From: Clostridiisalibacter paucivorans DSM 22131
Lineage (GTDB): Bacteria > Bacillota > Clostridia > Tissierellales > Clostridiisalibacteraceae
Direction: 5' to 3'
Length of the DNA stretch: 64,000 bases
Assembly (NCBI RefSeq): GCF_000620125.1
Contig: NZ_JHVL01000003.1
Span: 1-64,000, forward strand
Under the pieces are notes generated by a model that made no database searches, was not told the DNA's origin, and saw only the letters and a program-made list of their open reading frames with translations. Shown here one piece after another: positions 58,980 through 60,631 of the stretch. Within the stretch, counting starts at the first letter, position 1. Each line of letters opens with the position of its first letter. Position numbers and translations under genes: made by a program.

Positions 58980-59384
58980 TCACCTTCCTCCATTAATTAT
59001 AGTTTTTATTTTGCTAATTTCATCTGATGCCATTCGACTCAATGCATTATAATATACAGTATTTTTAGCTAAATTTGCCATCTCTACATCTATATTCACA
59101 TTATTGCCATCTTTTTTTGTAGAGTAGAAATTATCTTTTTTTACAATGGGCATAAAATTTTTATTGTCATATGTTTGGTTTATATGTCGATTATTGGTTG
59201 TATCAAGTTCCAAGTATTTCTTTTCAATACTATCATCTAATATTTTTTCAAAATCAACTTTTATTCTTTTATATCCCGGTGTATTGACATTAGAAATATT
59301 ATTAGAAATTGCTTCATTTCTCAACCAGGCCCCATCCATAGCTTTTTTCAAAAAATTAATTTTTCCATAAAATTCATTTATCAT
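58980..59384 (-). CDS. flgB: Flagellar basal-body rod protein FlgB
   Basis: 134 aa, first gene of the fla/che operon. N-terminal ISNNISNVNTPGYKRIKVDF is the rod-protein signature, and the C-terminal helix MANLAKNTVYYNALSRMAS completes the coiled-coil core. AAGGGGTG precedes the ATG. Confidence 0.95.
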   Translation of the reverse strand: MINEFYGKINFLKKAMDGAWLRNEAISNNISNVNTPGYKRIKVDFEKILDDSIEKKYLELDTTNNRHINQTYDNKNFMPIVKKDNFYSTKKDGNNVNIDVEMANLAKNTVYYNALSRMASDEISKIKTIINGGR

Positions 59385-59745
59385 AAATACACCCCTTCTA
59401 AAACAATTAATAGCATAAGATAAATTATTTAATGCAAACCTTCTTCACTAAATTCGAGTTTTTTAGTGCTTTTTCCTGCTTTTAATTGAAAATTCGACAT
59501 TAATATATAACACTTTTATATGTATATAAATATACCCTAAAAAAACCTATATATTTACTAATATCATAATTATTATATTATACTATTTTCATCACCACAA
59601 GAATAGTATTTTAGGTCCATATTTGACATATAATACATATTTTTTACAATATAGAATGCAATTTCATATAACAATATATCTGATTTTTCTACAAAATGCA
59701 ATTTTTATAAATTCAAGTATATATTTACAGTTTGATTTGTAATCA
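59385..59745 (-). promoter_or_regulatory. fla/che operon control region and leader
   Basis: About 360 AT-rich bases between the codY terminator and flgB without a gene. A weak SigA-like promoter, TTGTAG (59694-59689) and TTATAT (59671-59666) with a 17-base spacer, is the best I see. Closer to flgB the minus strand has TGTCGAA (59499-59493), equal to the Spo0A-box core; a second TCGAATTT copy; GCAGGAAAAAGC; and a hairpin CACTAAA/TTTAGTG (59468-59462 and 59452-59446). A 10/15 match to the CodY box lies at 59480-59494. Regulators are not proven. Confidence 0.45.
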
Positions 59746-59781
59746 TTATAAAAGACTCAGCAACTATATACTGAGCCTTTT
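59746..59781 (-). terminator. Rho-independent terminator after codY
   Basis: Stem AAAGGCTCAG/CTGAGTCTTT (10 bp, one G-U) with a ten-base loop, followed on the minus strand by TTTTATAA. It starts about 20 bases after the codY stop and separates hslVU-codY from the fla/che operon. Confidence 0.8.
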
Positions 59782-59800
59782 ATAATTTAATTCAATTTCA

Positions 59801-60583
59801 TTAATTTTTAAGCTTTTCCAGTTCATCCATCAATTTATTATTTAAAATCTTTATATATGTTCCCTTCATGCCTAAAGACCTGGACTCTATAACTCCAGCA
59901 CTTTCAAATTTCCTTAGTGCATTTACTATTACAGATCTAGTTATGCCTACTCTATCAGCTATTTTACTAGCCACAAGCAGCCCTTCATTTCCCTCTAATT
60001 CATTGAATATATGTTCCACCGCTTCCAGTTCTGAATAAGATAATGTACCTATAGCCATCTGTACAATAGCTTTTTTTCTAGCCTCAGCCTCTACTTCATC
60101 TGCCTTAGCCCTCAATATCTCCATCCCTACTATGGTAGCACTATACTCACCTAAAACCAAATCATCTTCATTAAATTCTTTACCTATCCTAGCTAAAACT
60201 AGGGTTCCTACTCTACCATTAGTAGTAATAACAGGTATAACTGTAACTATCTTATTATCATAATCACATTTACTCACCTGATCAAATACACATTTTCCTG
60301 ATTCAGTAATATTTGCCATAGTTTCATTGATCTTAAGCAGTTCATCATTATAATCTTTAGGGAATCTCCTCTCCTCAATTATTTCATTTTCAATAATTCT
60401 ACATTTATACCCTGGTGACAAGCAAAAACCAAATACTTTTCCTTTCCTGCTAGCTATATATACATTAGCTTCTAATATCGAACTTAATGTCTCAGCTATT
60501 TCACTAAATGATACCGGTTTAGAACCTGACTCCTGTATTATTTTGTTAATTCTTCTAGTCTTTTCTAATAAACTTTCACTCAT
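59801..60583 (-). CDS. codY: GTP-sensing transcriptional repressor CodY
   Basis: 260 aa. N-terminal GAF domain for branched-chain amino acids (about 1-150, with [11 protein letters not shown] and GTLVLARIG) and a C-terminal winged helix with [22 protein letters not shown]. It represses nutrient-scavenging and, in B. subtilis, motility genes. AAGGAGG precedes ATG 60583. Located between hslU and the fla/che operon. Confidence 0.97.
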
Positions 60584-60631
60584 TTTAATCCTCCTTCTTT
60601 TATCATCCATCACTAATTATTAATTGTTGTA

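Follow-up and report, generated by a model that had tools for sequence, protein, structure and literature searches.

Motility and sporulation are often viewed as opposed programmes of the bacterial cell. SigH is the sigma factor of the transition phase and of entry into sporulation. The B. subtilis sigma-H consensus comprises RNAGGAWWW and RNNGAAT separated by 11–12 nt. In C. difficile, the flgB operon is preceded by a SigA-type promoter (PMC7438776; PMC3865298), SigH is reported to "negatively modulate" motility (PMC3865298), and a spo0A mutant is described as hyper-flagellate (PMC4028888). The heptamer TGTCGAA is the core bound by Spo0A of the same species (PMC3485338). In C. acetobutylicum, expression of the motility genes occurs during exponential phase and a second time late (PMC2530871).

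The window, by which the whole analysed stretch of 64,000 nucleotides is meant, belongs to a genome of 3.25 Mb in 85 contigs. The order of genes on its minus strand is hslV, hslU, codY, a gap of 416 nt with a GC content of 21%, and then flgB, flgC, fliE, fliF, fliG, fliH and fliI. HslU, CodY, FlgB, FlgC, FliE, FliF, FliG and FliI were named by NCBIfam models scoring above their curated cut-offs, and the names of hslV and fliH rest on position and sequence only. Because the gap opens with the terminator of codY, the promoter of the flagellar operon is expected in the remainder of the gap. The designation of the region as a leader of 361 nt in the initial annotation is therefore misleading, as the gap includes this terminator and a 5′ UTR of only some 60 nt is predicted. 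The features of the locus are as follows.

59801–60613, minus strand: codY, the upstream neighbour of flgB on the same strand (TIGR02787, above cut-off).
59745–59786, minus strand: terminator hairpin of codY, near-symmetric, which could act on both strands (−23.1 kcal/mol, z −8.15).
59602–59619, minus strand: weak, degenerate copy of a palindrome, TGGACCTAAAATACTATT (score 12.1, or 8.4 with the window site left out of training).
59493–59499, minus strand: TGTCGAA, candidate Spo0A box with an exact 7-bp core, 13 nt upstream of the −35 block.
59471–59479, minus strand: −35 of the predicted sigma-H promoter, GCAGGAAAA, with AGGA at 59477–59474 (part of the best sigma-H site in the gap).
59450–59457, minus strand: −10 of the predicted sigma-H promoter, TCGAATTT, with GAAT at 59455–59452, 18 nt after AGGA.
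59446–59468, minus strand: inverted repeat CACTAAA/TTTAGTG spanning the −10, with no evidence of function from shuffles, folding or pair counts.
59442–59446, minus strand: predicted region of the transcription start, with a 5′ UTR of about 60 nt (estimated from the GAAT-to-end distance in the promoters of Table 3 of PMC7438776).
59390–59399, minus strand: ribosome binding site of flgB, AGAAGGGGTG, recognised by sequence (GGTG in most rows of the alignment of the window with nine relatives).
58980–59384, minus strand: flgB, gene 1 of the fla/che operon (TIGR01396, above cut-off).

The letters on which the initial annotation had drawn are indeed present on the minus strand of the gap: TGTCGAA at 59499–59493, the purine-rich element GCAGGAAAAAGC at 59479–59468, and the hairpin arms CACTAAA at 59468–59462 and TTTAGTG at 59452–59446. 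The second copy of TCGAATTT was also found, at 59457–59450, but it does not lie wholly within the hairpin loop as had been proposed, since only TCGAA belongs to the 9-nt loop and TTT falls in the 3′ arm. The frequency of such motifs was estimated in dinucleotide shuffles of the 416-nt codY–flgB gap. Among 2000 shuffles, the core TGTCGAA/TTCGACA was present in 0.5% and the pair AGGAWWW-N10..12-NNNGAAT in 1.1%. A repeated 8-mer containing both C and G occurred in 35% of the shuffles, and a perfect stem of at least 7 in 76% of 200. The Spo0A core and the AGGA...GAAT pair are unusual, and the 8-mer repeat and the hairpin are ordinary for AT-rich DNA.

It is most likely, with a probability of about 0.85, that the flgB (fla/che) operon is driven by a sigma-H-type promoter at 59479–59450. 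The pair AGGA-N18-GAAT sits 93 nt before flgB. Its reading as a promoter draws on the sequence match, on recurrence and position in relatives, and on the presence of sigH and spo0A in the genome. The tie of this stretch to sporulation control had been anticipated in the initial annotation, but its main element, the sigma-H-type −35/−10 pair formed by the purine-rich block and the second octamer, had gone unrecognised. For the comparison, a matrix was built from Table 3 of PMC7438776, which gives 40 SigH promoters of C. difficile; 38 were used, and the two rows marked as low-scoring were omitted. C. difficile lies outside the genomes compared. The top site found by the matrix scan of the gap was GCAGGAAAAAGCACTAAAAAACTCGAATTT, with a score of 15.1, a spacing of 18 and AGGA at 59477 (p 0.015 against 200 shuffles), and the runner-up scored 6.5. 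The pair has an AGGA-type −35 and a GAAT-type −10 at the 17–18 nt typical of the class, and its score is low, inside the published range: it exceeds those of only six of the 38 training promoters. When the 64-kb window was scanned, 13 sites on the minus strand and none on the plus strand outscored the flgB site. Of these 13, the one before pyrH was placed, between genes, and the matrix score alone is not decisive for the site before flgB.

If the prediction is correct, RNA polymerase with SigH would read GCAGGAAAA as the −35 and CTCGAATTT as the −10, with 18 nt from AGGA to GAAT. Transcription would begin at about 59446–59442 and leave a 5′ UTR that is short, about 60 nt, and without structure. 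The start was estimated on the assumption that the sequences of Table 3 end approximately at the start, 6–10 nt after GAAT in those checked (PMC7438776). Spo0A~P bound at TGTCGAA (59499–59493), some 50 nt before the predicted start, may tune the promoter in either direction.

The genome encodes the factors that such a promoter would need. A sigH gene was identified at C17:976–1569 by TIGR02859 (380 bits, cut-off 294.8), and spo0A scored 427 bits (cut-off 200). Two sites in the same genome served as positive controls. The genome's own spo0A is preceded by a sigma-H site scoring 18.9, located 81 nt before the profile match and about 72 nt before the ATG. A strong intergenic sigma-H-like site (20.2; 25296–25270, minus strand) precedes the pyrH-frr genes, 51 nt before pyrH; in C. 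difficile, frr is among the SigH targets given in PMC7438776 (Table 3).

Other sigma-H-like sites of this genome were recorded as well. Three near-identical promoters (loci L114, L120 and L122, position about 1501 in each locus) scored 19.5–20.8, and about 90 nt downstream of the site in L122 there is a match to Rfam CRISPR-DR2, because of which at least one of the three may lie in a CRISPR leader; direct repeats of at least 22 nt were looked for on the downstream side of L114 and none was found. A gene for a dCache-HAMP-GGDEF diguanylate cyclase (C8:82746) has a site scoring 21.8 at 95 nt upstream, a possible input of SigH into c-di-GMP. A ruvC-like gene, named by eye (C4:35836), has a site scoring 21.0 at 67 nt upstream. 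In the window, a site scoring 21.5 (37051–37026, minus strand) lies about 390 nt before a MinD/FlhG-like gene, recognised by eye; it is probably inside the preceding gene and may be due to chance.

The recurrence of the site was assessed in regions upstream of flgB, taken from 80 loci of a public genome collection and from 86 flgB loci of the order to which the window belongs, the window included; 160 distinct regions remained once six duplicates were removed. The 86 genomes were drawn from 91 with a flgB-like match, G032, G073, G088, G143 and G145 being left out for partial or weak matches. At a cut of 14.9, a sigma-H site was found in 45 of the 160 regions in the sense orientation and in none in the antisense orientation, and at a cut of 13 the numbers were 53 and three. 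With the −35/−10 spacing falsified by −8 to +12 nt, 1–10 of 159 regions passed at 14.9, and four of 159 coding stretches of flgB of equal length did so (L056 was dropped from both controls, its upstream stretch being overlong). Recurrence before the same gene, by which a sigma-H assignment was judged here, is above these controls. Among the sites found, 44 are 58–214 nt upstream of flgB and one lies at 326 nt, and the spacing is 17 in 39 and 18 in six, including that of the window.

The window site, at 15.1, is close to the cut at which the wrong-spacing controls still pass. Together with its weak score and the occurrence of a similar pair in about one shuffle in ninety, this gives some room to the explanation that the motif has arisen by chance in an AT-rich spacer and that the real promoter lies elsewhere in the gap. 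Such an explanation seems unlikely, as, apart from a one-nucleotide shift at the −35, the site keeps the register of the proximal promoter found in two near families, f8 and f11. In these families a second, more distal site scoring at least 13.5 is present in six of seven regions, and it is the proximal one that the window's site matches. In the alignment of the window with nine relatives, TCGAA is common to nine of the ten rows, AGG to eight and the ribosome binding site to most; in the window, whose spacing of 18 is one longer, AGG is shifted by one nucleotide. At the −35, two rows, L086 (family f12) and L011, fall outside the alignment; a sigma-H-like site is present at another place in the region of each. 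The expectation that the elements would be conserved in relatives was thus borne out for the −35/−10 pair, but not for the hairpin.

Across the order, the promoter was found in 32 of the 86 genomes. It was detected in 30 of the 57 genomes with sigH above the cut-off and in two of the 29 without (Fisher p 1.7e-5, with phylogeny ignored); in the other 27 genomes bearing sigH, the flgB site is below the cut. One to five genomes each of families f1, f8–f13 and f15–f18 have the promoter, as do two of 20 in f5, four of 16 in f7, none of 19 in f19 and not the single genome of f6. Families f5 and f7 are mostly without the promoter despite the presence of sigH in 13 and 16 genomes, respectively. In the two promoter-bearing genomes G037 and G039, it was not possible to identify sigH by family or protein search; G037 possesses spo0A and is rated 100% complete. 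This absence of sigH is possibly an assembly gap, because in several genomes, that of the window included, sigH is found close to the start of a contig. In the collection, 19 of the 80 loci were positive, six of them from genomes also present in the order set, and the positives include Geosporobacter, Anaerosolibacter, Thermotalea, Lutispora, Maledivibacter and a genome of Gracilibacteraceae. No locus with a Lachnospiraceae title reached the 14.9 cut.

Another explanation would make TGTCGAA the working element of a SigA promoter controlled by Spo0A or CodY, the AGGA...GAAT pair being incidental. The rarity of the core in shuffles speaks for it, as does the lowering of flagella by Spo0A described for C. 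difficile (PMC4028888), and cores outside a sigma-H −10 were found in 28 of the 160 regions, where shuffles would predict 2.3 sites. But about nine or ten of these 28 regions have the core in the context of a c-di-GMP riboswitch, as read from the printed contexts, and most of the remaining ones fall in a few clades. A fixed position of the core relative to the promoter was not found in the relatives, where the cores varied in place and sometimes lay downstream of the promoter. The recurrence of the Spo0A core before flgB is consequently suggestive only. AGGA-N17/18-GAAT, by contrast, recurs with a fixed spacing in far more regions. As for CodY, which had also been proposed as a regulator, the best match to the box consensus AATTTTCWGAAAATT in the gap is 11/15, a value reached in 79% of 300 shuffles and therefore at the level of chance. 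It seems improbable on this evidence that a Spo0A- or CodY-controlled SigA promoter accounts for the locus. The Spo0A box itself remains a plausible candidate, as had been suggested initially; what does not hold across clades is its position.

Several other promoter assignments were considered. TGTCGAA as a second sigma-H −10 was rejected, there being no −35 and the site score being 6.5. A SigD promoter was rejected too, the best match to the SigD consensus being only 9/12. Promoter-like sites found by a SigA scan of the gap were no commoner than in shuffles, and a SigA promoter may still be present in a gap so rich in AT. Several loci of family f19, in which a c-di-GMP-I riboswitch precedes flgB, also have a TGTCGAAAAAGCTTGC-like sequence further upstream, possibly a conserved Spo0A box.

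The initial annotation had also raised the possibility of a structured RNA leader. A c-di-GMP-I riboswitch precedes flgB in 18 of 19 loci of family f19 (L168, L171–L187) and in six of 20 of family f5 (L162–L167), and a riboswitch or other structured leader before flgB of the window would resemble these relatives. The window itself has no Rfam match at the gathering threshold, and the weak matches below the threshold are far beneath it; nor was a c-di-GMP-I riboswitch found in the 15 scanned of 44 sigma-H-positive relatives. The hairpin stretch of 36 nt, folded alone, gave z −2.5. Against this, the 116-nt stretch 59500–59385 folds no better than shuffles (z 0.55) and the predicted 62-nt UTR folds worse (z +1.86). 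Over ten sequences, the columns of the hairpin pair in 51.4% of cases, against 49.2% in column shuffles, and RNAalifold predicted no pair in the consensus fold. With the start predicted at 59446–59442, the −10 lies within the hairpin, whose 5′ arm would not be transcribed from the predicted promoter. A structured leader is not supported and is very improbable.

Upstream of the predicted sigma-H promoter, many relatives share the palindrome TAGGACTTAAGTACTA, often 51–53 bp from the sigma-H site. The motif search upstream of the −35 in 45 positive regions yielded TAGGaCTTAAGTACTATT in all of the 40 best-scoring runs. In two-fold testing, which is only partly independent since the training sites were picked with the whole-set model, a score of at least 10 was obtained in 34 of 44 regions and in none of 44 reversed sequences. 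The distance to the promoter is 51–53 bp in 13 of the 31 regions with both elements; other spacings are 32, 42, 85–86 and 113–116 bp, with a few at 12, 107, 140, 172, 191 and 327. For the 16 distinct spacings, the resultant was 0.61 at 10.5 bp, 0.30 at 10.0 and 0.48 at 11.0, which is suggestive of placement with helical phasing, as judged by this resultant and by no formal test. The copy in the window is doubtful, because five or more other places of the window score as high.

The idea that the palindrome belongs to the c-di-GMP riboswitch was rejected, since no riboswitch was seen in those relatives with strong copies that were scanned; a palindrome score of at least 17 was recorded in three f19 regions. 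The palindrome as the mark of a large regulon was rejected as well: exact matches occur in 28 of 150 genomes, not clearly more than with the reversed-pattern control. In four genomes of family f13 (L211, L219, L222 and L230), the palindrome lies about 85–100 nt before an HlyD-like gene, assigned by Pfam in L211 and by sequence similarity judged by eye in the other three. The HlyD-like gene thus appears to be a second recurrent target besides flgB in these four genomes. The window's own genome has a copy of the palindrome class, TAGGACTAAAGACCTA, upstream of rpoN (C14:47944). FapR was considered as a candidate regulator because of the likeness of its box to the palindrome; no fapR was recognised by eye beside the palindrome sites.

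A broader picture can be drawn tentatively, with somewhat less than even odds: in a large part of the order the flagellar master operon would be switched on directly by SigH, the opposite of what SigH does in C. difficile, together with a regulator at the palindrome about 52 bp upstream or further away at roughly whole helical turns, and sister families would have swapped this arrangement for a c-di-GMP riboswitch. A SigH promoter before this operon would couple the building of flagella to the decision to stop growing, and, if the conserved SigH promoter is real, many spore-forming anaerobes would make flagella as they leave growth, perhaps for a search for food before commitment to the spore. 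That flgB would answer to SigH in certain families and to a c-di-GMP riboswitch elsewhere suggests a regulatory replacement that is testable. There is also a consequence for motif searches. Since TGTCGAAT can serve as a sigma-H −10, the two elements can be confused in exact searches for 0A boxes. The perfect 0A boxes reported before spo0A, lplA and ssuA of C. difficile (PMC3485338) look like the SigH −10 elements given for the same genes (PMC7438776).

In the titles and abstract openings of the open literature, subscription papers being mostly outside this scope, no report of SigH directly driving flgB was found among the matches listed. Compared with known systems, the candidate Spo0A box of the window is a single exact core recognised by sequence, and the motif overlaps sigma-H −10 elements in sequence. 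The c-di-GMP-I riboswitch (RF01051) that precedes flgB in sister family f19 and in part of f5 is not found in the window. The predicted promoter resembles the C. difficile SigH promoters of Table 3 of PMC7438776 in its AGGA −35, in its −10, which is GAAT or GAAA there, in the spacing, which is mostly 17–18, and in the start a few nucleotides downstream; the likeness extends to spo0A and the pyrH-frr operon, which have such sites in the window's genome also. Unlike the arrangement predicted here for flgB, that table names no flagellar gene. A direct SigH promoter on flgB would thus be a wiring different from that of C. difficile. In both organisms, an early flagellar operon headed by flgB is linked to SigH and Spo0A, by prediction in that of the window; in C. 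difficile the two regulators lower motility, whereas in the organism of the window the predicted action of SigH would be direct and positive.
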